From positions 1 through 64,000 of the forward strand of contig BMTG01000003.1 in the NCBI GenBank assembly GCA_014649555.1: a DNA stretch of 64,000 nucleotides, in the 5' to 3' direction. The position numbers and the translations under genes are program-made. Source of the stretch: Streptomyces globisporus (GTDB lineage: Bacteria > Actinomycetota > Actinomycetes > Streptomycetales > Streptomycetaceae). Below, in pieces: positions 25,205 to 41,359 of this stretch. The notes under the pieces were generated by a model. The model was given only the letters and a program-made list of their open reading frames with translations. It was not told the origin of the DNA and searched no databases. Position 1 is the first letter of the stretch; every line of letters begins with the position of its first letter.

Positions 25205-26494
25205 TTACCCAGAACATGCCGGTCCGCTCGCCCCGTCCAGGCTGTCCACCACGGTCACCCGTCCGCCATCGCCCGGATCGGGGTCGGGCATGATCGATTC
25301 CGGGTCGACCAGGTAGACCTCGTGACCGTCGAGCGTCAGCCGGCGCACGATTTCCAGAAGCATGCGCCGGGCCACGTCATCGATCGAATGGACCCGTGTG
25401 AGGTCCAGAGCGATCCTGGTTTCCGGGTACGAGGTGTCCACGGCTTCCCGGATGACTCTCTCGGCTCCGGCGAAGCCGATGCCGCCCTGCAGTTCAAGAA
25501 CCCGGAGGGCTTCCGGTCCGCTGCCGACGACGTGGTTCGTTCGCAAAGCCGCACGCGCGGTGGCGGGGACCTCCATCACATGCAGGCCCATGTCCGAAGA
25601 GAACCGCTCGAACAGTGACACCCCGCGAACACTGTTTCCGTGGTTGTCCAGTCGCGGCGAGAACGTGGCCATGCCGACGTGTCCGGGGAGCGCGCCGATC
25701 AGGCCTCCCGCAACCCCGCTCTTCGCGGGGATGCCGACCTGGGTGCCCCAGTCGCCGGCCGCGTCATACATTCCGCAGCTGAACATGACGCTGAGCACCT
25801 GGCGCACCACCGGTTCCGGCACCACCTGCTCGCCCGAGAGAGGGTTCACCCCGCGGTTCGCCAACGTCGCGGCCATCATGGCCAGATCGCGTGTGCTGAC
25901 GAGAACGGAACACTGGCGGGTATAGCCGTCGACGACGGCCCGCGCGTCCTCGACGAGGATGTCGTGGCTGCGGAGCATGTGCGCGATGGCAAGGTTCCGG
26001 TGGGCGTGTGCCATCTCCGACGCGTACACGGCGTCATCCGTTCTCAGTCGACGTCCCGCGAAGGCCGAAAGGCCGTCGACCACGCGTTCCACCCGCTCGG
26101 TCGCGTTCAGACCCGCCGGGCCGGCCAGGGAGTGAACGGTGATCGCGCCGGCGTTGATCATCGGATTGCGGGGCCTGCCGGTGTCGCTTTCGAGAGAGAT
26201 CTCGTTGAACGCCTCGCCCGACGGCTCGACACCGACCTTGGCGAGCACAGGGGCGAACCCGCGGTCCGCCAGCGCCAGCGCGTATGCGAACGGCTTGGAG
26301 ATCGACTGAATCGTGAACTCGGTGTCGACGTCACCGGCCCCGTACACCTCTCCGTCGACCATGGCGAAGGCTGCGCCGAGGCGCTCCGGGTCCGCTGCCG
26401 CGAGCTCGGGTATGTATCCCGCCAGCTCCCCGGACGCGTCCGGCCGCACAGCGTCCAGCACCTCGGTCAGATAGTCGGGAATGATGGAGCGCAT
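25205..26494 (-). CDS. glsA: Glutaminase with C-terminal STAS domain
   Basis: 429 residues from ATG at 26494, preceded by GGAGGA. Glutaminase A hydrolyses glutamine to glutamate and ammonia. Residues ~1-310 hold the beta-lactamase-like fold: FTIQSISKPFAYALAL (Ser64-x-x-Lys67), NPMINAGAI, YTRQCSVLVSTRDLAMMAAT LANRG and GIPAKSGVAGGLIGALPG. Residues ~330-405 (LELQGGIGFAGAERVIREAV, IALDLTRVHSIDDVARRMLL, YLVDPES) are a STAS domain. Such fusions occur in actinobacteria, and the extra domain may sense a ligand or partner. Confidence 0.92.
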   Translation of the reverse strand: MRSIIPDYLTEVLDAVRPDASGELAGYIPELAAADPERLGAAFAMVDGEVYGAGDVDTEFTIQSISKPFAYALALADRGFAPVLAKVGVEPSGEAFNEISLESDTGRPRNPMINAGAITVHSLAGPAGLNATERVERVVDGLSAFAGRRLRTDDAVYASEMAHAHRNLAIAHMLRSHDILVEDARAVVDGYTRQCSVLVSTRDLAMMAATLANRGVNPLSGEQVVPEPVVRQVLSVMFSCGMYDAAGDWGTQVGIPAKSGVAGGLIGALPGHVGMATFSPRLDNHGNSVRGVSLFERFSSDMGLHVMEVPATARAALRTNHVVGSGPEALRVLELQGGIGFAGAERVIREAVDTSYPETRIALDLTRVHSIDDVARRMLLEIVRRLTLDGHEVYLVDPESIMPDPDPGDGGRVTVVDSLDGASGPACSG

Positions 26495-26573
26495 TCGTCC
26501 TCCTCCATGGAAACGGCAACCTCTTCCGCCACGAACTCCTTGCCGTGCAGGCATCGATTCTCCTGGGCAGACA

Positions 26574-27233
26574 TCACGGCTGGATCAGAGCGTTGCGATC
26601 CGGCTCAGGCACGTCTGCCAGCAAACGCAGCTGCGCGGCGTCCACGTTGGCGCCGAAAGCGGGTGTTCCGGGCTCGAGCCGGATACCCGCCGCGAGGTCG
26701 CCGATGATCAGTGGATCGAACCCGAAAGCGTCGACCAGTGCGGTCACGGTGGCGAGATCGCCGGGCAGGTGGCCGGCGATCGCGATCGCCTTGCGCCCGG
26801 GGGCGCCTGCCGCACGGGCCCCGTCCTCGAGGTCGTGGTAGCCCATGTGGTTGAAGGCCTTCACGACCCGGGCGCCTTTCAGGAACCCCTGCACGGCCTC
26901 GCTCGAGGAGGTCTCCGTCGGGAGGATCGTGTCGCGCGGACCGTCGACCTCCCACCAGTGGTTCATCGCGTCGACGACCAGCTTCCCCGCCAGTTCGGGG
27001 ACGGGGAGGTCTCGGTGTCTGCCGAGCGGAAGGGCGAGGATCACCACGTCGGCGGCCTCCGCGGCATGGGCCGGCCATACGGCCGTAGCTCCCGGGGTGA
27101 GGACCTTGGTGGTCAGCACGATCCTGGCGGGGTCACCCGACCCGGATATCAGGACGCGGTATCCGGCAGCGCCTGCCCGACGGGCCAGTACGGTGCCGAT
27201 CTTCCCGGCCCCCAGGATCCCGATGGTGGTCAT
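26574..27233 (-). CDS. NADP/F420-type reductase (NAD(P)-binding domain)
   Basis: 219 residues. The N-terminus [20 protein letters not shown] is a perfect Rossmann dinucleotide fold (GxGxxG). [29 protein letters not shown] and [15 protein letters not shown] match F420-dependent NADP oxidoreductase-like proteins, which shuttle electrons between F420 or NADPH partners. Its start overlaps the stop of the LLM flavoenzyme gene by 4 bp (ATGA), so the two are coexpressed and may form an electron-transfer pair. The exact cofactor is not certain. Confidence 0.85.
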
Positions 27234-28300
27234 CGCGTCGCTCCGGCCGTGGCCGCGGGCTGTCCGGCCAGAAGCTCTCGGACCCGGGGGATGACCTGGG
27301 TGCCGTACAGCTCGACCGCCCGAAGCCGGGCCGATGCCGAAACGGTGCCGGCGGAGGAGTAGATCAGGTCGAACCGGCCCGCATCCAGCACCCGGACGGC
27401 GTGAGCGATCTTGGACGCGACCGTCTCGGGCGAACCGACGTACAGCGACCCGTGGTCCACCTCGGCGTCGAACTCCTCACGGCGGAGCGGCGGCCAGCCG
27501 CGCAGCGCCCCGATCCGGTCACGCGTCTCCTTGTATCCGGGGTAGAAGAGTTCCTTGGCCTCCTCGTCACTGGAGGCGATGAAGCCGGGCGAGTGCAGCC
27601 CGACCGGCTGTGCCGTCGTACCGAACTCCTCGCTCGCCCGCCGGTACAGATCCACGTAGGGAGCGAACCGGTCGGGAGCGCCGCCGATGATGGCGAGCAT
27701 GAGCCGGAATCCGTACCGAGCCGTGCGGATCACGGACTGCGGTGTCCCGCCGACACCGACCCAGGTGCTGAGACGTCCCGATTCGGTCTTCGGGTACACG
27801 TCCGCGGCGTGCAGAGCGGCGCGTGTGGTGCCTTCCCAGGTGACCGGCGTCTCGTCCAGCAGCCGATGGAAGAGGTCGATCTTCTCCTCGAACAACACCT
27901 CGTAGTCCTTCAGGTCGTACCCGAACAGGGGGAACGACTCGGTGAACGAGCCGCGTCCGAGGATCACCTCGGCCCGGCCGCCGGACAGCGCGTCGACCGT
28001 GGCGAACCGCTGAAACACCCGTACCGGGTCGTCCGAGGACAACACCGTCACGCCCGACGCGAGCCGGATGCGCTTCGTGACGGTCGCGATACCGGCGAGT
28101 ACGGTCTCGGGGCTGGAGATGGCGAACTCGGGCAGATGGTGCTCGCCCAGCGCGACCACGTCGATGCCGACCTCATCGGCGAGGACCGCTTCGGCCACCG
28201 CGGCGCGGATCGCCTCCGCATGCGAGACGATCGAGCCCTGATCGTCGCGGGGCAGGTCGCCGAAGCTGTCGATTCCGAACTCGACGTCCGAAGCATCCAT
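27230..28300 (-). CDS. LLM-class flavin-dependent oxidoreductase
   Basis: 356 residues from ATG at 28300. The bacterial-luciferase TIM barrel is evident: [40 protein letters not shown]-type segment (residues ~38-55), [41 protein letters not shown], and [20 protein letters not shown]. These enzymes use FMN or F420 for monooxygenation or reduction. The upstream region has a GTTGACACGTCAAC operator shared with other promoters. It is the first gene of a two-gene operon with the F420-type reductase. Confidence 0.92.
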
Positions 28301-28434: not shown

Positions 28435-28448
28435 GTTGACACGTCAAC
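28435..28448. promoter_or_regulatory. MarR-type operator, LLM/NTF2 divergent promoter
   Basis: GTTGACACGTCAAC is an inverted repeat with 6-bp arms. A further half-like copy, TTTATGTGTCAAC, lies at 28464-28476. It overlaps the -35 of a plus-strand promoter. Same motif family as 31945, 34446, 35055 and 41346. Confidence 0.65.
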
Positions 28449-28464
28449 TCTGTCATTTTATTGT
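28436..28464 (+). promoter_or_regulatory. Promoter for the NTF2-like gene
   Basis: TTGACA (28436-28441), 17-bp spacer, TATTGT (28459-28464). The operator covers the -35 element, so repression is the likely mode. Confidence 0.5.
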
Positions 28465-28553
28465 TTATGTGTCAACAAAGATCTGGGGCTGCGGCCGGTC
28501 ACCGTCGACAGCGCCCTCTGCAGCTCTTTCCGCACCATCCAGGAAGCGTGGTC

Positions 28554-28934
28554 ATGACGGACAACGATCAGGCCCGGCGCAACATCGACATCGTCACCAC
28601 CGCGATGCGAGAACTCTTCGTGGAGAAGGACCTCACCGCGCTGGACCGGTACTGGGCCGAACCGTATGTGCAGCACAGCCCTCAGCTGCCCGACGGCCTC
28701 GACACACTCCGCGCCGCAGTGCCGGGACTGGAGGGGTTCTCCTGGGAGCCGCAGCGCGTGGCGGCCCAGGGCGACCTCGTGTTCACGCACAGCCTCGTCC
28801 ACGGCTGGGGGCCCGGTCCCACGGTGATCGTCGACATCTTCCGACTGGCGAACGACCGCATCGTCGAGCACTGGGACGTCGTGCAGGACCTCGTCCGTCC
28901 CGAAGCGACCGCCAGCGGCAACAGCATGGTCTGA
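28554..28934 (+). CDS. NTF2-like/SnoaL-like protein
   Basis: 126 residues from ATG at 28554, preceded by AGGAAG. NIDIVTTAMRELFVEKDLTA LDRYWAEPYVQHSPQLPDGL opens the cone-shaped NTF2 fold. PTVIVDIFRLANDRIVEHWD VVQ is the final strand pair characteristic of SnoaL-like proteins that act on or bind small hydrophobic substrates. It is divergent from the LLM flavoenzyme and shares its operator. The substrate is unknown. Confidence 0.88.
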   Translation: MTDNDQARRNIDIVTTAMRELFVEKDLTALDRYWAEPYVQHSPQLPDGLDTLRAAVPGLEGFSWEPQRVAAQGDLVFTHSLVHGWGPGPTVIVDIFRLANDRIVEHWDVVQDLVRPEATASGNSMV

Positions 28935-29054
28935 CCTAGTCCACCGGGGGTCGAAGCGGGCGGTCCTCGCCGGTGACGGCGTCGGGCGCAGTCCCCCGCG
29001 CCACGTAACGGCTCCCGGCTGCCGGTGTCACCCGGGCCGTCCGGCCTTCGCCGC

Positions 29055-29279
29055 TCACACGCTCTCCCCCGGAGGCACCGCCGCCGACGGGCCGGAGGCG
29101 TCCCGCTCGCCGGGTTCCACCTCCGGGGAGCCCTCCATGAGGGCCAGGCGTTCGTTCAGGCCGGCGACGAGGGCCATGTCGTCCCTCATCGACAGCATGG
29201 CGACCATCGCGGACAGGACGGACTGCCCGTCGTCGATGAGCGGCTGCGGGTCCGGCTCGAACCCGTCCTCGCCGCTCAT
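29055..29279 (-). CDS. Hypothetical protein, 74 residues
   Basis: ATG at 29279 is preceded by GAGGTG. MSGEDGFEPDPQPLIDDGQS VLSAMVAMLSMRDDMALVAG LNERLALMEG is helical; the tail is Pro/Ser/Glu-rich and probably disordered. No family is recognised. It is a plausible small cytoplasmic protein. Confidence 0.5.
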   Translation of the reverse strand: MSGEDGFEPDPQPLIDDGQSVLSAMVAMLSMRDDMALVAGLNERLALMEGSPEVEPGERDASGPSAAVPPGESV

Positions 29280-29659
29280 GCGGTCACCTCACTTGGGCTT
29301 CCTCTGCCCGCGCCGCCTGATGATGCCCGGCGAGCGGCTTGTCGGCCCAACTTCCGTTCGTACGGCGTCGATGCCCATGGCCGAGGCGTACGAGGGCCAG
29401 TTGCGGTCACGTCCTGCGCGCCCTGTCCGTCCCGGGCAGGGCGCGCAGTTGGCCGCGGACGACAGGGAGGTGGGCGCTGCGAACGGCCCCGTACCCACCG
29501 GCGGGAATTCTCCCCGGCTCCCCGGCCTTCATCGCGTTCTGCGTCATGAGTTCAGGATCGCGCCGCCCATGCCCTTGCGGCAGGGGGAGTTGTCACGGCC
29601 TCCGGTGACCGCTGTCATCGCCACGCATGACAAATGTCAGAGGAAGAGCTTGCGACGGG
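29280..29659. other. Intergenic stretch
   Basis: No gene is supported. I see no clear hairpin or repeat. Confidence 0.5.
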
Positions 29660-30616
29660 CTACTTGGGCGACCAGCGGGGCGTAGAGGTTCCGTCCCACC
29701 GCATGGGGTCGTCCTCCAGCGCGGCGCGGTCCCACTTTCCGAGCACCGCGGCGGCCTCGTAGGTGGTGTGCAGGAACTCGGCGAGCGCGCGATCGGGGTC
29801 GGGCGCGGAGCGGACGGCTTCGTAGGGCAGCAGGAACTGCTTGAACTCGGAGCTGAAGTGGGCGCCTTCCGGACCGACCGGGTGATCGGCGAACCCTTCG
29901 GGCTCGGGGTAGGCGTACGCGTAGAAGGCTCCTTCCTCGCCTCCCCCGGGCCAGAATCCGCAGCTGGAAAGCTCCCGGGAGTAGCCCTCGACCATGACCC
30001 AGTCGCCGCAGTTGGGTGCGCCGCCGGGGTGCGGAGGAGCCTGTCGCCCGGAGAAGCGGGTACAGGCGAGATCCATCGCTCCCCAGAAGAAGTGCACGGG
30101 GCTGACTTTGCCCACGAAGTGCGACCGGAACTCCCCCATGACCCGGTTCGCCTGCAGCAGCTGTCGCCAGAACAGGGTTGCCGCCTCACCGTCGTAGGAA
30201 GCGTGATCGTGATCCTCGGCGAACGGAATCGCGGGCTCGACCTCGTTGGGGTGGGGATGGATCGGTGCCTCGATCCCGAGTTCGTCGAGCGTGCGCAGGA
30301 CCTGGGCGTAGAACTCGGCCACCGCCATGGGCCGGAGCGGGAAGCCGCGCACGCCGCCGTCGCTGCTGCGGACTTCGAGCCGGTGGCCGACGAAGTCGAA
30401 TTCGATCTCGAACGCCCCGGAGCGGTAAGGGATGGTCGATGTCGTCAGTCCGCGGGGGCTGACGTACAGCGTCACCTGCCACCAGTGGTTGACGAGTGGT
30501 GCGTGGGCCATGCGGATCTTGCCCACGATCTGGGTCCACATGTGCAGTGTGTCGCGGGTCTCGGTCCAGTCGGAGACTCTCAGGCTCGGCCAGTTCGTGG
30601 CAGTTGGTGCGGTCAT
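29660..30616 (-). CDS. DUF5996 family protein
   Basis: 318 residues. The hallmarks NWPSLRVSDWTETRDTLHMW TQIVGKIRMA, NHWWQVTLYVSPRGLTTSTI PY, FDFVGHRLEVRSSDG and the motif HASYDGEAATLFWRQLLQAN RV are characteristic of this actinobacterial family. Its function is not established. It lies 35 bp downstream of the flavodoxin-fold reductase gene, in the same direction, so the two may be cotranscribed. Confidence 0.9.
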   Translation of the reverse strand: MTAPTATNWPSLRVSDWTETRDTLHMWTQIVGKIRMAHAPLVNHWWQVTLYVSPRGLTTSTIPYRSGAFEIEFDFVGHRLEVRSSDGGVRGFPLRPMAVAEFYAQVLRTLDELGIEAPIHPHPNEVEPAIPFAEDHDHASYDGEAATLFWRQLLQANRVMGEFRSHFVGKVSPVHFFWGAMDLACTRFSGRQAPPHPGGAPNCGDWVMVEGYSRELSSCGFWPGGGEEGAFYAYAYPEPEGFADHPVGPEGAHFSSEFKQFLLPYEAVRSAPDPDRALAEFLHTTYEAAAVLGKWDRAALEDDPMRWDGTSTPRWSPK

Positions 30617-30651
30617 CGCATCTCACATCCTCGGTAGCGCCTTCAAGCGGG

Positions 30652-31377
30652 TCAGCGGTGTTCGGGATTGGCGTTGTCGGGGCGGCAGCCGGCGTCCCAG
30701 GCCGAGCGCTGGTTGCCGTAGGCGGGAATTCCGCCGGTGTCGCGGATCATCGACGCGAGGTGGAGGAGGTTGTACGTCATGAACGAGATGTTCCGATTGG
30801 CGAAGTCGTTCTCCGGCCCGCCTGATCCCTCGTCGAGGTAGGAAGGGCCCGGACCGACCTCACCGAGCCAGCCGGCGTCGGCCTGGGGCGGGACGGCGAA
30901 GCCGATGTGCTGCAGGCTGTAGAGGACGCTCATGGCGCAGTGCTTGAGGCCGTCCTCGTTGCCTGTGATCAGGCAGCCGCCGACACGTCCGTAGTAGGCG
31001 TACTGACCCTGCTCGTTGAGCACACCGGAGTAGCCGTAGAGCCGTTCGATGACGCGCCGGGTCACCGAACTGTTGTCTCCGAGCCAGATCGATCCGCCGA
31101 TGACGAGGATGTCGGCGGCCAGGATCCTTCGAAGGAGCGCGGGCCACTCGTCGGTGTCCCAGCCGTGTTCGGTCATGTCCGGGCGGACACCGGTGGCGAT
31201 GTCGTGGTCGACGGCGCGGATCTGGTCCACGCTGACTCCGTTCGCCTCCATGATGGCCACGCTGCGGTCGATCACACCCTGGGTGTGACTGAGCTCGGGA
31301 GATCGCTTCAGGGTGCAGTTGATGTACATCGCACTCAGCCCGCTGAAGTCGGGCTTGTCGATCACGGGAGCATTCAT
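30652..31377 (-). CDS. Flavodoxin-fold NAD(P)H-dependent reductase
   Basis: 241 residues. SAMYINCTLKRSPELSHTQG is the N-terminal strand and FMN phosphate loop, ADILVIGGSIWLGDNSSVTR RVIERLYG the second FMN loop, and GRVGGCLITGNEDGLKHCAM SVLYSLQHIGF the third. The C-terminus has FANRNISFMTYNLLHLASMI RDTGGIPAYG. These features place it among NADPH-dependent FMN reductases and quinone reductases. A GTTGAT-type operator lies further upstream at 31945; a short frame (31675-31866) is in between. Confidence 0.88.
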   Translation of the reverse strand: MNAPVIDKPDFSGLSAMYINCTLKRSPELSHTQGVIDRSVAIMEANGVSVDQIRAVDHDIATGVRPDMTEHGWDTDEWPALLRRILAADILVIGGSIWLGDNSSVTRRVIERLYGYSGVLNEQGQYAYYGRVGGCLITGNEDGLKHCAMSVLYSLQHIGFAVPPQADAGWLGEVGPGPSYLDEGSGGPENDFANRNISFMTYNLLHLASMIRDTGGIPAYGNQRSAWDAGCRPDNANPEHR

Positions 31378-31674
31378 CGCGGTGGTCCTTCCGGGTGTTC
31401 GGTGCTGTCGGCCGTGAAAGCCCGACCTCTTCGTTCCGGCGCGGCAGGTCGTCGACAGATGGTGCGCGAGTACGGGCCCACTGCGCTTTCAGGGTTTCGG
31501 AACTGGAAAAGACAAGCCTCCCGGAAGGCGGGCGTGGAGACGACAAGGCGATGTGTCGCGGCGTGTTCCTTAATCGACTTCCTGAATCGACCGGCGTCGT
31601 GGCCGGAGATTCCCTGGAACCGGGCCCGCAAAACCCTGGGCGCACCTCGTTCACTCTTCACATCGAACCTGCTC

Positions 31675-31866
31675 CTACTCGATAGCTGCGGGAAATGCTG
31701 CCTTCCCTGCGCAAGCGATGGGATATTCGGCGCCGAAGGGTCGTCTTGACGGCCACGACGAGGCGCCGGCCTCCCGAGCGTTGATGAACGTACGGCGATC
31801 GGGATCGAGCATGCCTCCCTCGCGCGTCGGCAGTGCGCCGACGCCGGCCGTGACTTCCCTGCTCAT
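31675..31866 (-). CDS. Short frame downstream of an operator, possible gene remnant
   Basis: 63 residues from ATG at 31866, which has GAGGGA upstream: MSREVTAGVGALPTREGGML DPDRRTFINAREAGASSWPS. The position behind the 31945 operator suggests it is the first reading frame of a transcript that also reaches the FMN-type reductase at 31377. The protein resembles no family I know and its tail looks random, so it may be the truncated N-terminus of a lost gene. Confidence 0.3.
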   Translation of the reverse strand: MSREVTAGVGALPTREGGMLDPDRRTFINAREAGASSWPSRRPFGAEYPIACAGKAAFPAAIE

Positions 31867-31944
31867 GGGAGATCCCTCATCGCGGTTGTCAGTGCTCCAC
31901 GGTCCGGCGGGGCCTGCGCATGTCGCCGTACACTAGCACCAGAA

Positions 31945-31958
31945 CTTGATGTGTCAAC
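31945..31958. promoter_or_regulatory. MarR-type operator upstream of the FMN-reductase unit
   Basis: CTTGATGTGTCAAC matches the shared motif (arms TTGA/TCAA). It lies 79 bp before the short frame at 31866. Confidence 0.55.
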
Positions 31959-33307
<1,349 letters not shown>

Positions 33308-33351
33308 GACCTGTCCGGCCGTTTCCGTCGTCGCCCGTAGGCCGGCCGCTT

Positions 33352-33433
33352 CGGGATGCGCCGCGACGAGCCTCTCGCGTCGCGCATCCCGATCGGCGTC
33401 GGCGGTCCGCGGGACCTCGGCTCCCGCGGACCG
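33352..33433. terminator. Two adjacent hairpins between convergent genes
   Basis: Hairpin 1: CGGGATGCG (33352-33360) with CGCATCCCG (33383-33391). Hairpin 2: CGGTCCGCGGG (33403-33413) with CCCGCGGACCG (33423-33433), a perfect 11-bp stem with a 9-nt loop. They sit between the hydrolase and pirin stops and probably end both transcripts. No U-tract, as is usual in Streptomyces. Confidence 0.7.
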
Positions 33434-33437
33434 CGGC

Positions 33438-34424
33438 TCAGGAGCTGCGGGGATTGCGGCGCGGCGCGAGCGTGGCGTTGGGCAGCTCGGGAGCGGGCAG
33501 CCGTTCTCCGGCGTACCCCTCCACCGCACCGAAGCGTTCGGACTGCTCCTCCCAGTCCCGGCGGGCCCTCACGATGTCGTCGTGGCTGCGGCCGATGAAG
33601 TTCCACCACATGACGATCTCCTCCTCGAAAGGCGGTCCGCCCAGCAGAACGGCTCGGGCCCGAGCGGGAGATGTGTTGCGGAGGATCAACGAACGGATGC
33701 CCGGACGGAGGAATCCGAGCTGGGCGGGGCTCAACGCCGTCCCGTTCAGTTCGATGTCCCCCTCGTCCACCAGCAGGCCGTGCTCGAACGCGGCGTCGAC
33801 GCCCAGGGTGAGGGACGCGCCGGGCTCGAGAATCAGCTCCGCGCCGAGCAGGGGTGTGAAGGTGCGCACCGGCGAGACCGCTTGCAGCAAGGAGCCGAGG
33901 AAGACCCTGATCTCGGCGCCGTCCTTGCGGATCGGCGATGGCACGTATCGCTGGAAGTCCCGTTCCGCATCGCGGTGTTCGTTCGGCAGCGCCACCCACA
34001 GCTGCACGCCGTGCAGGACGGTTGTGCGGACGGTGGAGACCTCGGAATGGCAGATGCCGCGACCTCCCGTCATCAGATTGAGCTCGCCGGGGCGCACGTA
34101 GGCGTGGCTGCCGAGACTGTCCCGATGCTCCACCTCGCCGTCGAACAGCCAGGTGACGGTCTGCAGGCCGGTGTGGGGATGCGGCGGCAGATCCATCCCG
34201 CCGCGCCGGGCGACGTCGTCGGGTCCGTAGTGATCGACGAAGCACCAGGCGCCGACGAAACTTCGGGCCCGCTGGGGAAGGGTGCGGCGCACGCTCATGG
34301 AGCGCGGGCCGCCCAGGGGGACATCCCGCGGCGTCAGGATCTCGACCTCGTGGAGGGCCTGTTCGGTCGCCTCCGGCCCTCGCGTGCAGTTCGTGCTGAC
34401 GGGATCACGTTCGACGTTGCTCAT
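33438..34424 (-). CDS. Pirin family protein
   Basis: 328 residues. The first cupin carries the pirin metal-site pattern: FVDHYGPDDVARRGGMDLPP HPHTGLQTVTWLFDGEVEHR DSLGS, then GELNLMTGGRGICHSEVS (His, His, His, Glu). The C-terminal part FEEEIVMWWNFIGRSHDDIV RARRDWE is also typical. Pirins act as redox-sensing regulators or as quercetinases. The GTTGATACTTCAAC operator is 22 bp upstream of its start and is shared with the divergent AhpD-like gene. Confidence 0.93.
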   Translation of the reverse strand: MSNVERDPVSTNCTRGPEATEQALHEVEILTPRDVPLGGPRSMSVRRTLPQRARSFVGAWCFVDHYGPDDVARRGGMDLPPHPHTGLQTVTWLFDGEVEHRDSLGSHAYVRPGELNLMTGGRGICHSEVSTVRTTVLHGVQLWVALPNEHRDAERDFQRYVPSPIRKDGAEIRVFLGSLLQAVSPVRTFTPLLGAELILEPGASLTLGVDAAFEHGLLVDEGDIELNGTALSPAQLGFLRPGIRSLILRNTSPARARAVLLGGPPFEEEIVMWWNFIGRSHDDIVRARRDWEEQSERFGAVEGYAGERLPAPELPNATLAPRRNPRSS

Positions 34425-34445
34425 GCTGAACTCTCCAGATGTATG

Positions 34446-34459
34446 GTTGATACTTCAAC
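34446..34459. promoter_or_regulatory. MarR-type operator, pirin/AhpD divergent promoter
   Basis: GTTGATACTTCAAC, an inverted repeat centred 22-34 bp before the pirin start and 27 bp before the AhpD-like start. Confidence 0.65.
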
Positions 34460-34485
34460 TTTATTTCGATCGCAGGGAGCCTTCA

Positions 34486-34962
34486 GTGACCATCACCTCG
34501 GCATCGAGCCGCGACAAAAAGGTATTCATCGACAAGTTCGACCCTGAAGCCTTCCGCGCTCTCGCACGGACCGCACAGGCCGCCGGGGCGGCGGCCGCCC
34601 GCGCCGGTCTGCCGGTCACACTGGTGGAACTGGTCAATCTCCGCGTCTCCCAGATCAACGGGTGCGCCTACTGCCTGCGCGCCCACACACGCGCGGCGCT
34701 CGAAGCCGGGGAGAGCCCGCAGCGCCTCGGGCTGCTGGCGGCCTGGCGCGAGACGGACGTCTTCACCCCCGCGGAACGCGCCGCACTGGCCCTGGCGGAG
34801 GCGACGACCAGCCTGACCGGATCCGCGCGGGGCGGGGCGGCCGCCGCGGCACGCGCCGATCTCACCGACGAGCAGATCTCGGCCGTGCTCTGGGTCGCCA
34901 TCAGCATCAACGCGTTCAACCGTGTGTCGATCATGAGCGGGCACCCGGTGAAGGAGGCCTGA
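34486..34962 (+). CDS. Carboxymuconolactone decarboxylase/AhpD-like protein
   Basis: 158 residues from GTG at 34486, with AGGGA upstream. The core VELVNLRVSQINGCAYCLRA HTRAALEAGE contains the CxxC-x-x-x-H site of AhpD-type alkylhydroperoxidases, in which the cysteine pair reduces peroxide. FTPAERAALALAEATTSLTG is the usual next helix, and DEQISAVLWVAISINAFNRV is the last. It is divergent from pirin and shares the operator with it. Confidence 0.92.
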   Translation: MTITSASSRDKKVFIDKFDPEAFRALARTAQAAGAAAARAGLPVTLVELVNLRVSQINGCAYCLRAHTRAALEAGESPQRLGLLAAWRETDVFTPAERAALALAEATTSLTGSARGGAAAAARADLTDEQISAVLWVAISINAFNRVSIMSGHPVKEA

Positions 34963-35054
34963 CACCGGCGCGGCCTGCGACGGCTTCCACGGCCGGGCCG
35001 ATCCGGCCCGGGCGGCACCTCCTCTCCGGCACGACGACACCCGGCCACCATAAA

Positions 35055-35068
35055 GTGGATGTGTCAAC
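35055..35068. promoter_or_regulatory. MarR-type operator upstream of the TPP enzyme
   Basis: GTGGATGTGTCAAC, a one-mismatch version of the shared palindrome, 60 bp before the start of the gene at 35129. Confidence 0.55.
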
Positions 35069-35128
35069 TATATTAGCTGCCGATCGTCACACGAGACGGG
35101 TGTGCAGCCCGAGGGGAGAAGTCCGGCG

Positions 35129-36868
35129 ATGCGAAATCAGACCGTGGCCCAGCAGATGGTGGACGTCCTGCGCCAGGCGGGAGTCGAGCGGATCTACGGC
35201 GTGGTGGGCGACAGCCTCAATTCGGTGGTCGACGCGGTGCGCCGCACGGACGGCATCGAGTGGGTACACGTACAAAACGAGGAGGCGGCCGCGTTCGCCG
35301 CGGCGGCGGAGGCGCAGCTGACCGGCAGGCTCGCGGTGTGTGCCGGAAGCTGCGGCCCCGGGAACACGCACCTGATCCAGGGGCTGTACGACGCGCACCG
35401 TTCGGGCGCGCCCGTCCTCGCCATCGCCTCGCACATCCCGTCCCACCAGATCGGCACCGGCTTCTTCCAGGAGACCCACCCGGAAAGGCTGTTCACCGAT
35501 TGCAGCGACTACTGCGAGATGATCAGCACCCCCGGGCAGATGCCCCGGGTTCTGCGGATCGCCATGCAGCGCGCTCTGGGGAACAGCGGGGTGTCGGTCC
35601 TGGTGATACCCGGCGACGTCGCACACGACAAGGCCGTCAATCCGACGGGAGCCGGCCACCTGGTCACCGAACGCGGCCGGGTCGTCGCCCCGGCCTCACA
35701 GGTGCGGGAGCTTGCCGACAAGATCAACACGGCACGGAAGGTGATGCTCTTCTGCGGTGCGGGGGTACGGGACGCCCACGCCGAGGTCATGGCGCTCGCC
35801 GAGAGCGCCGCCGCACCCGTCGGGCACAGCCTGCGGGGCAAGGAGTGGATCCAGTTCGACAACCCCTTCGACATCGGCATGAGCGGCCTGCTCGGCTACG
35901 GCGCCTGCTTCGACGCGATGCACGAGGCCGACCTGGTCGTCCTCCTCGGTACCGACTTCCCGTACAACGACTTCCTGCCGCAGGCACGAAGCGTGCAGAT
36001 CGACCACGACGCCGGCCGCCTCGGCCGTCGCACCGTTCTGGAGCTCGGGGTCCACGGCGACGTACGGGAGACGTTGCGGGCCGTGCTCCCGTTGGTCGAG
36101 GCGAAGAAGGACCGCGCCTTTCTGCACCGGATGCTGCGCAGACACGCCCGCTCGCTGGAGGCGGTCGTCTCCCCCTACACCCACGACGTCGAGCGGCACA
36201 CGCCCATCCACCCCGAGTACGCGGCATCGGTGCTGGACGAGTTCGCCGCCGACGACGCGGTGTTCACCGTGGACACCGGCATGTCCAATGTGTGGGCCGC
36301 GCGTTATCTGACCCCCAACGGCCGGCGCCGGGTGATCGGTTCGTTCGTGCACGGCACGATGGCCAATGCTCTGCCGCACGCCATCGGCGCCCAGTTCGCC
36401 GCCCCCGGCCGCCAGGTGATCTCCATGTCGGGCGACGGTGGACTGGGCATGCTGATGGGCGAACTGCTCACCGTGAAGCTGCACGACCTGCCGGTGAAGA
36501 CGATCGTCTTCAACAACTCCTCGCTCGGCATGGTCAAGCTGGAGATGCTCGTCGAAGGGCTGCCCGAGCACGAGACCGACCACGAGCCGGTGGACTTCGC
36601 GGCCGTCGCCCGCAGCGTGGGCATCGAGTCGGTCCGCATCGAGCAACCCGGAGACGTCGCCGAAGGGCTGAAGCGGGCGCTCGCCCATGACGGACCGTTC
36701 TTGGTCGACCTGGTCACCGACCCCAACGCTCTCTCCATACCGCCGCACATCTCGGCCGCCCAGATCAAGGGATTCGCCTTCGCCGCGGGCCGGACGGTGC
36801 TCGACGGAGGCGTCGGCAGGATGCTCGACCTGGCCCGGGCGAATCTGCGCAACATCCCCCGCCCCTGA
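35129..36868 (+). CDS. poxB: Pyruvate oxidase-type thiamine-pyrophosphate enzyme
   Basis: 579 residues from ATG at 35129, preceded by GAGGGGAGAAG. The N-terminal Pyr domain has GVERIYGVVGDSLNSVVDAV, WVHVQNEEAAAFAAAAEAQL TG (catalytic Glu) and GSCGPGNTHLIQGLYDAHRS. The central domain binds FAD in pyruvate oxidases. The PP domain has GDGGLGMLMGELLTVKLHDL and FNNSSLGMVKLEM, the GDG...NN magnesium/TPP motif. Similar enzymes oxidise pyruvate to acetate and CO2 at the membrane. The promoter carries the shared MarR-type motif. Confidence 0.88.
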   Translation: MRNQTVAQQMVDVLRQAGVERIYGVVGDSLNSVVDAVRRTDGIEWVHVQNEEAAAFAAAAEAQLTGRLAVCAGSCGPGNTHLIQGLYDAHRSGAPVLAIASHIPSHQIGTGFFQETHPERLFTDCSDYCEMISTPGQMPRVLRIAMQRALGNSGVSVLVIPGDVAHDKAVNPTGAGHLVTERGRVVAPASQVRELADKINTARKVMLFCGAGVRDAHAEVMALAESAAAPVGHSLRGKEWIQFDNPFDIGMSGLLGYGACFDAMHEADLVVLLGTDFPYNDFLPQARSVQIDHDAGRLGRRTVLELGVHGDVRETLRAVLPLVEAKKDRAFLHRMLRRHARSLEAVVSPYTHDVERHTPIHPEYAASVLDEFAADDAVFTVDTGMSNVWAARYLTPNGRRRVIGSFVHGTMANALPHAIGAQFAAPGRQVISMSGDGGLGMLMGELLTVKLHDLPVKTIVFNNSSLGMVKLEMLVEGLPEHETDHEPVDFAAVARSVGIESVRIEQPGDVAEGLKRALAHDGPFLVDLVTDPNALSIPPHISAAQIKGFAFAAGRTVLDGGVGRMLDLARANLRNIPRP

Positions 36869-36950
36869 ACGGGCATCAGCGGATCCGGCCCGCACGATCC
36901 GCATCAGGAAGCGTTTCGTCGATGGAAGTGAAACTGCGAGGGCTCGACTC

Positions 36951-37560
36951 ATGACCGCCACTCCCCTGCGCTGGTCCGACACGGCACACGAGGTGCTGTC
37001 GGGCGACCTGAACGTCGCTGTCGCCTACGGCACCCCGGCCGGTGGCGCCGTCGTCGTCAGCGTTTCCCCGCTCGGTCTCACCGACCGAGCGGGGGGCCGG
37101 ATCGGTTTCACGACCTCGCTCGGCTTCCCCAGGAAGCTGGAGCGGATCCTGCGCGATCCCCGTGTCGCGCTCGCCTACCACACCAGGGTGACGCCGTGGT
37201 GGACATGCGCCCTTCGCCCCAGCGGCTGGACGACGTCCTCAACGCGTCCGATCGCTTCTTCGGCCCGGGAAAGAGCGGCAGGGCCTGGGACTGGCTGCTG
37301 CACGAGTACCGACGAGCGCGGGTGTACGTCGATGTCGACGTCCGGAGGATGGCCACCTGGCCCGACCTGGCCACCTACGGGCCGCAAGAGGTCACCGGGC
37401 CCTCCGTACCGGCTGCTCGCCTACCGGGGAGCGGACGGGTACCCCGTCGTGGTGCCCGTCGAGATCGTCGGGCGTGACCACACCGGGTTCCGGCTGCTGT
37501 CACCTCCGGGTCTGCTTCCGCCCGGCGGGACGCGCGCGGGCCTGCTCGCGCACTCCTTCC
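36951..37560 (+). pseudogene. Pyridoxamine 5'-phosphate oxidase-like gene, frameshifted and 3' truncated
   Basis: ATG at 36951 reads MTATPLRWSDTAHEVLSGDL NVAVAYGTPAGGAVVVSVSP and FPRKLERILRDPRVALAYHT R, a split-barrel flavin-binding domain. Near 37190 the frame is lost and continues as QRLDDVLNASDRFFGPGKSG RAWDW. Near 37400 it changes again to YRLLAYRGADGYPVVVPVEI V. The C-terminus runs into the TetR gene. At least two indels and a fusion make it nonfunctional. Confidence 0.75.
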
Positions 37561-38163
37561 GCCCGCAGAACGTCGGATCGGGCGACCGACGGGCGACAGA
37601 CACGGAACGCCGAGCGCACACGGCGTGCGGTGCTCGATGCGGCCGTCCAGGTGATCCTGGACAAGGGCGCCGCCGTGACGCTGGCTCAGGTGGCCGCCGC
37701 CGCCGGAGTGTCGAGAAGCGGTCTGATCCACCACTTCGGCAGCAGGGACCAGCTGGTGGTCGCTCTGGTGGAGGACACGAACGAACGCTTCCGGGAGACG
37801 GTCCGCAGCCACCTCGACCTGTCCGAGAACTACCCGGGAAAGATGCTCCGCGCATACGTCCGCGCGCTCTGTGCGGGCAGCGCAGAGGCGGCGTCGGCCC
37901 GCGACTTCACATCGGCACCGATATGGGGCGGTCTCTACACGATCCCTGCGGTCGTTCCGGTCATGGAGGAGAACGCCGCATGGTGGGACGAGCAGCTGGC
38001 CCTCGACGGGATCAGCCCCGAACGCATCATGATCGTGCGCAGGGCTGCCGAGGGGATCGCCATGGCCGCCCTCTACGGAGAGCAGGACGGGGGGCGCATC
38101 TCGACCGCGCGCGATCTTCTGCTGGAGCTGGCCACCGAGGGCACCTTCCGCACCCCTCTCTGA
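37474..38163 (+). CDS. TetR-family transcriptional regulator, start uncertain
   Basis: The family-like part begins around RNAERTRRAVLDAAVQVILD and contains the helix-turn-helix VTLAQVAAAAGVSRSGLIHH FGSRDQLVVALVED, followed by an all-helical ligand domain. The only in-frame GTG (37474) lies inside the remnant of the PPOX gene, so the first ~35 residues are not native. The natural start was probably removed by the deletion that joined the two genes. An internal GTG in the HTH region would be too late to give a full domain. Confidence 0.75.
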   Translation: MTTPGSGCCHLRVCFRPAGRARACSRTPSARRTSDRATDGRQTRNAERTRRAVLDAAVQVILDKGAAVTLAQVAAAAGVSRSGLIHHFGSRDQLVVALVEDTNERFRETVRSHLDLSENYPGKMLRAYVRALCAGSAEAASARDFTSAPIWGGLYTIPAVVPVMEENAAWWDEQLALDGISPERIMIVRRAAEGIAMAALYGEQDGGRISTARDLLLELATEGTFRTPL

Positions 38164-38178
38164 ACTTCCGAGCCGCGC

Positions 38179-38213
38179 GGCTCGGGCCCAGGAGATTCTC
38201 CCGGGCCCGAGCC
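38179..38213. terminator. Intrinsic-type hairpin between convergent genes
   Basis: GGCTCGGGCCC (38179-38189) pairs with GGGCCCGAGCC (38203-38213), a perfect 11-bp stem with a 13-nt loop, after the TetR stop and before the quinone-reductase stop. Confidence 0.75.
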
Positions 38214-38289
38214 TTCATGAGGGATCCGGAGAGGAATACGGCCGCGTTGAACGCGCACCGCCGTCATCTGCCGTTGGCGTCATCCGTCG

Positions 38290-39195
38290 TCAGAGAGTGA
38301 CGACGAGCTTCCCCTGGACGTGACCGCCCTCGGCTTCCCGGTGCGCGTCCGCAATCCTGTCCAGCGGGTACGTCGCCTGTACGTACGGGGTGTACGCGCC
38401 CTTGCCGCCCAGCGCGGCCCCCTCCGCGAGTACAGTCGCGTCGTTCTCGGCGTAGACGTGCCGTACTCCGAGCTCCGCCGAGCGGGCCGCGTCGGCAACC
38501 GTCACGACGCGGTCCCCGTCGCCGACGAGGGCAACCAGGTCGGCGAGCGATCCGGATGCCGCCAGATCGAGCGCCGCGTCCGCTCCCCCGGGGGCGAGCT
38601 CGCGGACCCGGTCGGCCAGTCCGTCACCGTAGGCGGTGGGCACGGCCCCCAGCGTCCGCAGGTAGGCGTGCTTGGCCGGGCTCGACGTGCCGATGACGGT
38701 GGCACCACGTGCCGCCGCCATCGCGACGGCGGCCCCGCCGACGCCGCCGGCGGCTCCCTCGATCAGCAGAGTGCGGCCAGAAAGGTCGCCGAGTGCGTCG
38801 AGCGCCCGGCCCGCGGTGGCGACCGCGAGACCGGCTCCGGCAGCCTGTTCCAGGGTCCACGCCTCGGGCACCGCGGACCAGGCGGTCAGCACGGCGTACT
38901 CCGCGGCGGCTCCGAAGATGCCGCCCAGACCGAATACCTTGTCACCGACCGTAACGCCCGAGACGCCGTCGCCGACCTCGTCCACCACTCCGGCGGCATC
39001 CCGGCCGGGGATCGCCGGGAACTCGACGGGAAAGTACGCGCGGACCTCCCCCGAGCGCAGCTTCCAGTCGATGGGGTTGACGCCGGCCGCAGCCACCCGG
39101 ATGCGTATCTCACCGGGCCCGGCGTGCGGTTCCGGGACATCGTCGACGACGATCACGTCGGCGGGGCCGTAGTCGTGGTAGCGGGCAGCACGCAT
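38290..39195 (-). CDS. NADP-dependent quinone oxidoreductase (zinc-independent MDR)
   Basis: 301 residues. MRAARYHDYGPADVIVVDDV and GVNPIDWKLRSGEVRAYFPV EFPAIPGRDAAGVVDEVGDG form the GroES-like domain; LIEGAAGGVGGAAVAMAAAR GATVIGTSSPAKHAYLRTLG is the Rossmann fold with the AAxGGVG cofactor loop. It lacks catalytic-zinc ligands, as in quinone oxidoreductases. It is divergent from a MarR gene, with CGGAAATT.ACTTAC repeats between them. Confidence 0.92.
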   Translation of the reverse strand: MRAARYHDYGPADVIVVDDVPEPHAGPGEIRIRVAAAGVNPIDWKLRSGEVRAYFPVEFPAIPGRDAAGVVDEVGDGVSGVTVGDKVFGLGGIFGAAAEYAVLTAWSAVPEAWTLEQAAGAGLAVATAGRALDALGDLSGRTLLIEGAAGGVGGAAVAMAAARGATVIGTSSPAKHAYLRTLGAVPTAYGDGLADRVRELAPGGADAALDLAASGSLADLVALVGDGDRVVTVADAARSAELGVRHVYAENDATVLAEGAALGGKGAYTPYVQATYPLDRIADAHREAEGGHVQGKLVVTL

Positions 39196-39211
39196 GGAGT
39201 CACTCCTCGAT

Positions 39212-39243
39212 CGGAAATTTACTTACTGCGGAAATTAACTTAC
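39212..39243. promoter_or_regulatory. Direct-repeat operator between the quinone reductase and MarR genes
   Basis: CGGAAATTTACTTAC (39212-39226) is followed 17 bp on by CGGAAATTAACTTAC (39229-39243). The two copies differ at one base. The spacing is near two helical turns. The site is just upstream of the quinone reductase start (39195), so the MarR protein at 39316 probably represses it. Confidence 0.6.
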
Positions 39244-39315
39244 AGCGATTCCCTTTCCGCAGCAAATAACGGTGAGTTGCTTTCCGCCGCAAGGTTTGCT
39301 GCTAGGATCACGCAC

Positions 39316-39768
39316 ATGGCAGCAGACGGCGAACTCCTCCCGGCCGAGTCGGACACCTGGGACTCGACACTGTCGGTGCTGCTCTGGCTTCCGGCAGCGC
39401 TTGAAGCGCGCCTCAAGCGTGACGGCCTCTGCCACCACGAGTTCCTGATCCTGTGGTGCCTGACGGAGCACCGGGAGCGCACGCACACGATGAGCTCGCT
39501 CGCCGAGCTGTCCCGGGTCACCCCGTCACACCTTTCCCGCCTCGCGTCACGGCTGGAGAAGCAGGGCTGGCTCACGCGCGAGCGGGATCCTTCCGACGCC
39601 CGCGTCACCATCGCCTCCGTGACCGAGGCGGGATCGGCGAAGTACGCCGAGACGGCACCCGGCTACCACGCGACCCTGCGCGAGCACCTCTTCGACCGGC
39701 TGACCGAGGAGCAGGTCGCGCAGCTCGGCGGCATCACGGCGACGGTCGCCCGGTCCCTGGCCCGATAA
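39316..39768 (+). CDS. MarR-family transcriptional regulator
   Basis: 150 residues, ATG at 39316. LCHHEFLILWCLTEHRERTH TMSSLAELSRVTPSHLSRLA SRLEKQGWLTRERDPSDARV TIASVTEAG is a standard winged helix with the DPSDAR wing tip. It is divergent from the quinone oxidoreductase and probably senses its substrate, as in other MarR/QorR-type pairs; the 15-bp direct repeats in between are the likely operator. Confidence 0.9.
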   Translation: MAADGELLPAESDTWDSTLSVLLWLPAALEARLKRDGLCHHEFLILWCLTEHRERTHTMSSLAELSRVTPSHLSRLASRLEKQGWLTRERDPSDARVTIASVTEAGSAKYAETAPGYHATLREHLFDRLTEEQVAQLGGITATVARSLAR

Positions 39769-39841
39769 GGGCGACGAGTCACACCGTCACGTCCTAGCGG
39801 ACGACCCGGACACCCGCCCGCTCCGGACGTCCTTCTGGCTC

Positions 39842-40471
39842 ATGCCTCAGGCGATCCTCGCCGCCGGCGCCGCGTTCGTCGGGTCGGCCCTGGTCAAGCG
39901 CTATCCGCCTGCCCATGTCATCACCGGCGGGCTTCTGACGACGGCCACCGGGTTCGGGCTGACCGTCTTCCTGGCTCCGGCATCGCCGCCTCTTCTCGTC
40001 GCGACCATGCTGGGGCTGGTCTCGCTCGGCGCGGGCATGGCCCTGGCCTTGAGCAACGACATCATCATGAGTTCCGTGCGGCCCGAACGCGCGGGACAGG
40101 CCGCCGCGACATCCGAGACCGCCTACGAGGTGGGCACGACGCTCGGTACCGCGGTACTGGGCGGGTTGCTCGTCTCCTGGTACACCAGGGCCTCCTCCAC
40201 CGGAGCCGGCGCGCTCGGCCTGCCGGCGGACCTGCTCGACCGGGCGTCCTCGACGCTGGCCGAAGCCCTGATCGTGGCCGGGGAGGTCTGCGGTGGCATG
40301 GGGAGCCTCCTCCTCGCAGCCGCGAAGGAGGCGTTCACCGAGGCGGCCACGGTGACCGACATCGCCGGCGCCGGGGTGATGGTCGTCGCCGCGATCTGGG
40401 CGCTGGTGACCCTGCGAGGCGTGTCCGCGAACCTGGATCTCGCCGAGGAGCACGAGCGTCAGCTCCACTGA
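39842..40471 (+). pseudogene. C-terminal part of an MFS (EmrB/QacA-type) transporter
   Basis: The frame reads FWLMPQAILAAGAAFVGSAL, HVITGGLLTTATGFGLTVFL and DIIMSSVRPERAGQAAATSE TAYEVGTTLGTAVLGGLLVS W, which is the second half of a 14-helix drug exporter. The GQAAATSETAYEVGTTLG motif is the family's motif in TM11. The first ~300 residues are missing, and the sequence between 39769 and 39842 has a stop. No ribosome-binding site precedes the first ATG. Confidence 0.75.
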
Positions 40472-40490
40472 TTCCGGTGGAGGGGGGTGG

Positions 40491-40517
40491 GGCACCGGTC
40501 CGCCGAGGACCGGTGCC
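40491..40517. terminator. Hairpin between convergent genes
   Basis: GGCACCGGTCC (40491-40501) pairs with GGACCGGTGCC (40507-40517); perfect 11-bp stem with a 5-nt loop, between the MFS remnant and the GNAT gene. Confidence 0.8.
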
Positions 40518-40611
40518 ATCCCCGCCTGCCGCAGGGCGTTGAGCGATCGGCGATCAGGGCTCGCGTGACGGAACACGCCTGCTCAGGCGTCCGGCGGCGA
40601 CCCCTCGGGTG

Positions 40612-40917
40612 TCACAGCCCGAACCGCGCGTGCTGCGCCTCCGGCACCAGGTCGGTGTACTCCGGGTGCTTGCCGAGCCAGCCGCGGATGAAGGGGCAGA
40701 AGGGAAGCACCTGGAGCTCCTGCTTCCTGGCCTCGTCGAGAACCGAACGGGCCAGCGTTCCCCCGAGGCCCCTGCCCCCGAACCGGGGGTCGATCTCCGT
40801 ATGAAGGAAAGCGATCTCGTCCCGGAATCGGTGGTACTCGACGAAACCCGCCAGCTCACCGCCGTCGAAGATCTCGAAACGCGACTCATCAGTGTTGTCC
40901 GCAACGCGAGTTGCCAT
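40612..40917 (-). CDS. Small GNAT-family N-acetyltransferase (YjdJ-like)
   Basis: 101 residues from ATG at 40917. FVEYHRFRDEIAFLHTEIDP is strand 4 of the short GNAT fold and RFGGRGLGGTLARSVLDEAR the acetyl-CoA loop (R-x-x-G-x-G). It ends LGKHPEYTDL, a hallmark of the YjdJ/Gtf2-type group of ~100-residue GNATs. It is followed upstream by a paralogue at 40961; the two are likely one operon. Substrate unknown. Confidence 0.88.
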   Translation of the reverse strand: MATRVADNTDESRFEIFDGGELAGFVEYHRFRDEIAFLHTEIDPRFGGRGLGGTLARSVLDEARKQELQVLPFCPFIRGWLGKHPEYTDLVPEAQHARFGL

Positions 40918-40960
40918 GGTTCCCATCCGTGTAGTCGACCCGTCGGTCATGTCAGTCATG

Positions 40961-41269
40961 TCAGTCGCTGACCTTGCTGCGGGACTGGTACAGCAGGTCC
41001 TGGTAGTCGGGGTGCCGGGCGATCCAGCCCGCGAAGAAGGGGCAGGTGGCCAGCACCCGGAGGTTCGCCGCGCGCGCGTCGTCGAGGGCGGCCCGGGCCA
41101 GTGCGGATCCGACCCCCCTGCCCTCGTAGGCCGGTTCGACCTCGGTGTGCACGAACGCGACGAGCTCCGCCGTACGGATGTACTGCGCGATGCCCGCAGG
41201 CTTGGACTCACCGTCGACGTACGCCTCATAGCGGTTCGCCCCGGGCACGTCGCTCACTTCGACCGCCAT
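40961..41269 (-). CDS. Small GNAT-family N-acetyltransferase, paralogue
   Basis: 102 residues. IAQYIRTAELVAFVHTEVEP AYEGRGVGSALARAALDDAR AANLRVLATCPFFAGWIARH PDYQDL shows the same YjdJ-type fold. It is first in the two-gene GNAT operon, and a perfect GTTGATGCATCAAC palindrome lies 77 bp upstream. The two copies are a recent-looking duplication, though they are not identical. Confidence 0.88.
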   Translation of the reverse strand: MAVEVSDVPGANRYEAYVDGESKPAGIAQYIRTAELVAFVHTEVEPAYEGRGVGSALARAALDDARAANLRVLATCPFFAGWIARHPDYQDLLYQSRSKVSD

Positions 41270-41345
41270 GTTTCCTCCTTGAATGCCTGCTCACGACCGG
41301 CTCGACGGCTATCCGCCGACCGTCACCTCACCTTAACCTCGGAAG

Positions 41346-41359
41346 GTTGATGCATCAAC
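41346..41359. promoter_or_regulatory. MarR-type operator upstream of the GNAT pair
   Basis: GTTGATGCATCAAC is a perfect 14-bp palindrome and the best match to the shared motif. Confidence 0.7.

Follow-up and report, generated by a model that had tools for sequence, protein, structure and literature searches.

A RosR-like MarR protein and GTTGA-N4-TCAAC palindromes define a predicted regulon of redox-type genes in Streptomyces globisporus

Do flavoenzyme, pirin, pyruvate oxidase and acetyltransferase genes that lie scattered over 13 kb answer to one repressor? The question is raised by a 64,000-nucleotide stretch of Streptomyces globisporus (assembly GCA_014649555.1, contig BMTG01000003.1, positions 1 to 64,000; hereafter the window), in which an earlier note had quoted five promoter palindromes and proposed an unrecognised MarR-type redox regulon. 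All five quoted sequences are present, at 28435, 31945, 34446, 35055 and 41346, but a sixth site at 28463, beginning 28 bp from 28435 and forming a tandem pair with it, had been overlooked. The earlier pattern GTTGATNNNTCAAC is exact in two of the five sites and has one mismatch in the other three; the form GTTGAT-N3-TCAAC was dropped for its poorer symmetry, and the palindromes are best written GTTGA-N4-TCAAC, which yields six strong predicted operators (Table 1). By computation we observed these sites, their clustering, their link to the family of a MarR protein encoded at 24677 (hereafter 24677) and their repeated presence in front of genes of these families in other genomes. The regulon looks real and of a known kind.

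To score the sites, we built a weight matrix on 78 loci from other genomes, using the 91 distinct sites that precede their homologous MarR genes; these were chosen at ≤ 1 core mismatch, so that only the inner four and the outer bases are free of selection. (In two of the 80 loci retrieved, L073 and L077, the sequence starts at the gene itself, and both were excluded from the 78-locus counts; a first matrix, fitted by expectation maximisation, wandered to shifted copies and 327 expected sites and was replaced.) The six operators scored 21.8–26.4 bits and the next-best place in the window 6.6, a 15-bit gap; the maximum in 100 random 64-kb third-order Markov sequences was 18.6 bits. At ≤ 2 mismatches the window holds 15 strand-matches, compared with 5.2 ± 2.9 in 100 shuffles, none of which reached 15. 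The whole genome (8.25 Mb) has 50 sites with ≤ 1 mismatch, against nine for a reversed-pattern control; seven of the 50 fall between 28435 and 41359, where ∼0.08 would be expected under an even spread, as do three of the four exact sites. Placement was followed in 82 sources (80 relatives, the window and the locus of a paralogue described below), with coding status taken from rough gene calls. Exact sites were non-coding in 79 cases and coding in 11, though 1.21 of 1.58 Mb is coding, and one-mismatch sites were non-coding in 172 and coding in nine. The motif thus does not occur at random density inside genes; such random density is what the earlier note had named as refuting its proposal. GTTGA and TCAAC are short, and ∼40 one-mismatch sites are scattered through the genome, as chance or base composition might produce; the clustering, the intergenic placement and the gap in matrix score contradict such an origin, to which we give next to no weight. 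Two places elsewhere in the genome whose core scores were fair were not counted: C7:373247 lies within an open frame and C2:64772 between gene 3′ ends. Within the window, the motif-like 32111–32124 (GTTGCTAGTTCAAC) scored 4.7 bits and was taken as chance; near-matches to it stand at similar places in two related loci, L028 (5032) and L029 (4045).

Which protein would bind these operators? The 24677 protein belongs to the MarR family (PF12802, 37.2 bits, cut-off 27), and its gene is the last of a minus-strand run, LLM monooxygenase, F420/NADP oxidoreductase, glutaminase and MarR, in which genes overlap or are separated by ≤ 63 bp and which the tandem operators 28435 and 28463 precede. A paralogue at C1:1284316 is 83% identical, and two sites 31 bp apart (C1:1284191 and 1284222) lie between an isochorismatase gene and the divergent paralogue gene. 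The 80 relatives' loci carry MarR proteins with 66–93% identity to 24677. Because the matrix sites had been pre-selected on their core, the unbiased test is a count of all gapped palindromes upstream of MarR: among 5-base palindromes within 250 bp, GTTGA-N4 was commonest (34/78 loci), followed by TTGAC-N2, which overlaps it (14/78). In 68 of 78 loci a site with ≤ 1 mismatch precedes the MarR gene by 300 bp or less. Among 23 distant relatives (< 60% identity), 15 have such a site and eight do not; there GTTGA-N4 is outside the 10 commonest exact palindromes, and many carry the asymmetric GATGA-N4-TCAAC. The strict motif GTTGAYNNRTCAAC was sought across the genus in 101 genomes and was present in 12 of 16 with a 24677-type MarR (E up to 1e-45) and in 19 of 85 without (Fisher P = 8.8e-5, with no correction for descent). 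That relatives' own promoters carry the palindrome, and that tandem pairs precede both the operon and the paralogue, bears out the earlier idea of a common MarR-type repressor with 24677 as candidate. On this sequence evidence, we consider it likely that 24677 and its paralogue are the repressor of these sites, as members of a RosR-like group; the paralogue probably shares the sites.

The earlier note had also put forward the MarR protein at 39316, whose gene sits inside the cluster between 35055 and 41346. This candidate did not stand: it is 28% identical to 24677, lacks the Cys92 and Trp69 discussed below and has no site with ≤ 2 mismatches nearby, and clustering of the overlapping frame turned up no homologues among the loci of the 80 relatives. 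That it is the regulator seems very improbable. The protein (39316–39768) falls in an unrelated group and is 38% identical to SCO3205, and its gene adjoins an alcohol dehydrogenase-type gene (38290–39195) on the opposite strand.

Two Streptomyces coelicolor proteins also bear on the question. SCO3205 (PDB 3zpl) is the nearest PDB chain to 24677 (E = 2.8e-27) and is described as acting on an autoregulatory divergent promoter with two sites (PMC3737563). Its consensus TTnAAnnnTCAA overlaps the palindrome, and the bound operator reported there, TTGAACTCTCAA, has the half-site spacing of the window sites. The DNA contacts given for SCO3205, Arg60, Ser73, Arg74, Ser76, His77 and Arg81 (PMC3737563), correspond to Arg59, Ser72, Arg73, Ser75, His76 and Arg80 here, none of which varies in 81 close or 23 distant relatives, although its contact Arg72 is Lys71 in 24677. 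AbsC (SCO5405, PDB 3zmd), which the same source links to zinc-dependent antibiotic control, is another near PDB chain (38.5% identity), with its salicylate-pocket Trp/His pair and Cys92 conserved. The sites might instead be those of this genome's own SCO3205 or AbsC orthologue, the local MarR being minor or redundant, and both orthologues exist: L022 is 80% identical to SCO3205, which lacks Trp69 and with which 24677 shares 39%, and L023 is 84% identical to AbsC, so that 24677 itself was rejected as the orthologue of either. However, neither L022 nor L023 has GTTGA-N4-TCAAC with ≤ 1 mismatch in the 300 bp upstream (L022 has the looser TTGAAACTTCAA), and across genomes the motif tracks the 24677 group. 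We regard ownership of the sites by L022 or L023 as unlikely.

A close parallel to 24677 is RosR (Cg1324) of Corynebacterium glutamicum, described as an H2O2-sensitive MarR protein whose DNA binding is reduced by H2O2 (PMC5401885). RosR is 38% identical to the window protein over 137 amino acids, shares its W-x-x-SRxSH helix (the Trp69 signature), Cys92 and His118, and is autoregulated. The published rosRb site (PMC7764795) fits GTTGA-N4-TCAAC with two mismatches. Used as a query, rosRb picked out three RosR-type loci when 242 genomes of a single genus were scanned. There the site and the beginning of a MarR gene overlap, and the product of this gene begins MTTPRW, which fits the T2I change described in that source (PMC7764795). 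Two of these loci (L224 and L225) have a second site near rosRb with one mismatch, and the third (L226) a further site with two. In L225 a YceI gene (691–1509) runs divergently from rosR with a site upstream, a different site-bearing neighbour from the LLM, pirin and GNAT set of the window; a YceI-like gene, sco5533, is by its description an SCO3205 target (PMC3737563). RosR has three cysteines (64, 92 and 151), whereas the window protein has one. The RosR consensus, which we take to be TTGTTGAYRYRTCAACWA, would equal the motif here, and the Cys64/Cys92 pair is reportedly needed for the response to H2O2. We call the window protein RosR-like, and not RosR, because it has Cys92 only and hence no such pair. 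Nor is orthology established, because the identity of RosR to the window protein (38%) hardly exceeds that to the SCO3205 orthologue (36%). In a tree RosR grouped with the group of the window protein, apart from SCO3205 and AbsC, at a fork (93/90) that is not firm, with long branches flagged.

We propose that 24677 and its paralogue would bind an 18-bp palindrome, T-n-GTTGA-YRYR-TCAAC-n-A, and hold down the repressor's own operon, i.e. LLM flavoenzyme, F420/NADP oxidoreductase, glutaminase and marR, as well as the divergent SnoaL gene, FMN reductase-DUF5996, the pirin/AhpD-like pair, pyruvate oxidase and the two GNAT genes. From the observations above we infer binding and repression, as well as operon structure, signal and physiological role. 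Since the operators lie in promoter regions, blocking RNA polymerase would be the simplest mode of repression, and a signal would release the repressor. The most likely signal may be an oxidant or a reactive aromatic, modifying Cys92 or filling a pocket formed by Trp16 and His118, three residues that never vary among the 104 relatives (81 close, 23 distant). Sensing of an oxidant or quinone is plausible by analogy, given the RosR relationship, the invariant Cys92 and the gene content; an aromatic ligand fits equally. Cys92 is the sole cysteine in 75 of 81 close relatives, as in the window protein, and on that ground we guess at a one-cysteine switch, e.g. a mycothiol mixed disulfide. Pirin, FMN reductase and isochorismatase-like genes suit aromatic chemistry. 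As Trp16/His118 is the equivalent of the AbsC salicylate pair (PMC3737563), the same repressor and sites could equally respond to a phenolic or carboxylate ligand, e.g. a plant or self-made aromatic, the regulon serving aromatic detoxification; set against this, RosR, which shares the equally invariant Cys92, is described as H2O2-sensitive (PMC5401885). We hold the ligand reading to be a serious contender, if somewhat short of an even chance. Another MarR protein, MhqR of Staphylococcus aureus and Bacillus, is described as quinone-sensing (PMC12893000). A bolder version, which we offer as speculation, is an emergency regulon widespread in actinobacteria, whose single repressor would take two signals, oxidation of the lone Cys92 and an aromatic at Trp16/His118, to switch on a movable electrophile-clearance cluster with its operators. 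Similarly tentative is the F420/FMN-linked set such dual signalling would serve: LLM with its own F420/NADP reductase, pirin, AhpD-like protein, isochorismatase-like protein, FMN reductase and GNAT-ferredoxin. The MhqR regulon is said to be a small one for detoxification.

The same gene families carry sites elsewhere. Counting a site as upstream from 300 bp before to 60 bp inside a start, over the same 82 sources, with genes called roughly from frame composition and clustered by BLAST, we found one for MarR in 67/77 loci, isochorismatase 44/46, LLM 14/17, pirin 12/19, GNAT 26/49, AhpD-like 7/15, pyruvate oxidase 3/6, MoaF-like 6/7, DUF5996 4/11, Fer4_19 ferredoxin 4/19 and a MerR 3/4. Altogether 199 of 360 genes of the chosen families have a site compared with 30 of 1254 others, a contrast inflated because the families were chosen partly by their sites. 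Tandem pairs at 28–29 bp precede LLM genes in L068, L074, L077, L090 and L097, with a 27-bp pair in L092, and L068, L090 and L092 hold much of the gene set within ∼16 kb. The Fer4_19 single-cluster ferredoxin gene closely follows the Acetyltransf_CG GNAT gene in L068, L070, L090 and L092; in L100 a site precedes the ferredoxin gene alone, and by clustering the window has no ferredoxin. A second pirin gene of the genome (C2:65047, 53%) has a weak site, GTGGAATGTTCAAC, 58 bp upstream, outside the 24 best core scores.

Several results weigh against this picture, beginning with the rough gene calls on which the family counts depend. SnoaL, FMN reductase and alpha/beta-hydrolase homologues had a site upstream in fewer than three loci each among the 82 sources. 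In a sample of the genus taken regardless of MarR, sites were found for LLM in 3/12, pirin in 4/29 and GNAT in 5/23, although GNAT genes at ≥ 75% identity had one in 5/8; because such MarR-blind homologues have fewer sites, we take the site to go with the regulator and close kin, not with the enzyme family as such. The evidence for individual sites is at the family level. The 80 loci were not thinned by relatedness, and the sites give no way to separate 24677 from its 83% paralogue. Other proteins may use the motif, because 19 of 85 genomes without a 24677-type MarR have it. More distant proteins vary, with Trp69 but not the Cys92 pattern in two of 65 tree rows. Finally, a promoter scan of 17 kb gave two promoter-like sites where 1.1 were expected, one coinciding with 28435, and did not list the one at 31945.

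The distances to genes single out that last site. The earlier note had placed the palindromes within ∼60–140 bp of a start, which is right for 28435 (134 bp to the LLM ATG at 28300, 105 bp to the SnoaL ATG at 28554), 35055 (60 bp to pyruvate oxidase) and 41346 (76 bp to the GNAT start), but not for 34446 (21 and 26 bp to pirin and AhpD-like, with starts as placed in this analysis) or 31945, behind which no intact gene lies close by, the intact FMN reductase being 567 bp away. In an alignment with L028 and L029, this operator is retained together with TTGACA, 16 bases and TAGTGT, but large gaps set the sequences apart from there to FMN reductase. An apparently decayed gene begins ∼78 bp from the site; its start MSREVTAGVGALP resembles an isochorismatase N-terminus (profile 4.6 bits, E = 0.005 over six frames), and in L092 an identical 14-mer precedes an intact isochorismatase gene; tblastn for the remnant gave better chance matches elsewhere in the window. 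On this weak evidence 31945 is probably an operator that outlived its isochorismatase gene, and it may now serve FMN reductase-DUF5996.

Table 1. Predicted operators, candidate regulator and associated genes in the window.
Feature	Coordinates	Strand	Context	Score or profile
Predicted operator GTTGACACGTCAAC	28435..28448		Tandem pair, first; LLM-SnoaL intergenic	23.2 bits
Predicted operator GTTTATGTGTCAAC	28463..28476		Tandem pair, second	21.8 bits
Predicted operator CTTGATGTGTCAAC	31945..31958		Before FMN reductase-DUF5996, apparently decayed isochorismatase start between	22.3 bits
Predicted operator GTTGATACTTCAAC	34446..34459		Between divergent pirin and AhpD-like genes	26.4 bits, window maximum
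Predicted operator GTGGATGTGTCAAC	35055..35068		Before pyruvate oxidase	23.9 bits
Predicted operator GTTGATGCATCAAC	41346..41359		Before two GNAT genes	24.4 bits
MarR-family regulator, 154 amino acids	24677..25141	-	Likely cognate repressor	Pfam MarR_2, PF12802
Glutaminase with STAS domain	25205..26554	-	Same operon, judged by strand and short gaps	
NADP/F420-type oxidoreductase	26574..27233	-	4-bp overlap with LLM gene	PF03807; TIGR01915 below cut-off
LLM class monooxygenase, Atu2307/SP_0267 family	27230..28300	-	First gene of predicted operon	TIGR03858 491 bits, cut-off 462
SnoaL/NTF2-like protein	28554..28934	+	Divergent from LLM	PF12680
DUF5996 protein	29660..30616	-	Downstream of FMN reductase	PF19459
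NADPH-dependent FMN (flavin mononucleotide) reductase-like	30652..31377	-		PF03358
Short frame, MSREVTAGVGALP...	31660..31866	-	Probable isochorismatase remnant (weak evidence)	
Pirin	33438..34424	-		PF02678, PF05726
AhpD-like carboxymuconolactone decarboxylase family	34486..34962	+		PF02627, TIGR00778
Pyruvate oxidase/dehydrogenase (thiamine pyrophosphate enzyme)	35129..36868	+		NF005114 1022 bits, cut-off 893
Second GNAT, Acetyltransf_CG family	40636..40917	-	Downstream of first GNAT	
GNAT acetyltransferase (Acetyltransf_CG)	40961..41269	-		PF14542

Two other genes accompany the cluster. A TetR-family regulator gene (37474–38163) lies inside it, for which clustering gave no homologue in the 80 relatives' loci, and a 680-amino-acid frame with a subtilase domain (PF00082; 42080–44119) adjoins its GNAT end.

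The description 'unrecognised' may hold for the regulon, of which we found no account in the papers searched, but not for its components, as operator type and regulator family are known from RosR and from SCO3205/AbsC (PMC3737563). In the literature searched, from which subscription journals were mostly absent, we found neither the motif nor a MarR/pirin/isochorismatase regulon in Streptomyces; the Streptomyces gene set, its recurrence as a cluster and the 28-bp tandem in front of the LLM operon are likewise undescribed there. According to PMC3737563, the putative SCO3205 targets showed no clear physiological theme, and no orthologue had been characterised as of 2013. A testable theme for the SCO3205-related group now comes from a compact set of redox and aromatic-type enzymes that recurs across loci, with a prediction of which genes rise together and with one cysteine and one pocket as test points. 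If the proposed role is true, a little-characterised group of MarR proteins would be tied to defence against electrophiles or oxidants in bacteria that produce antibiotics.

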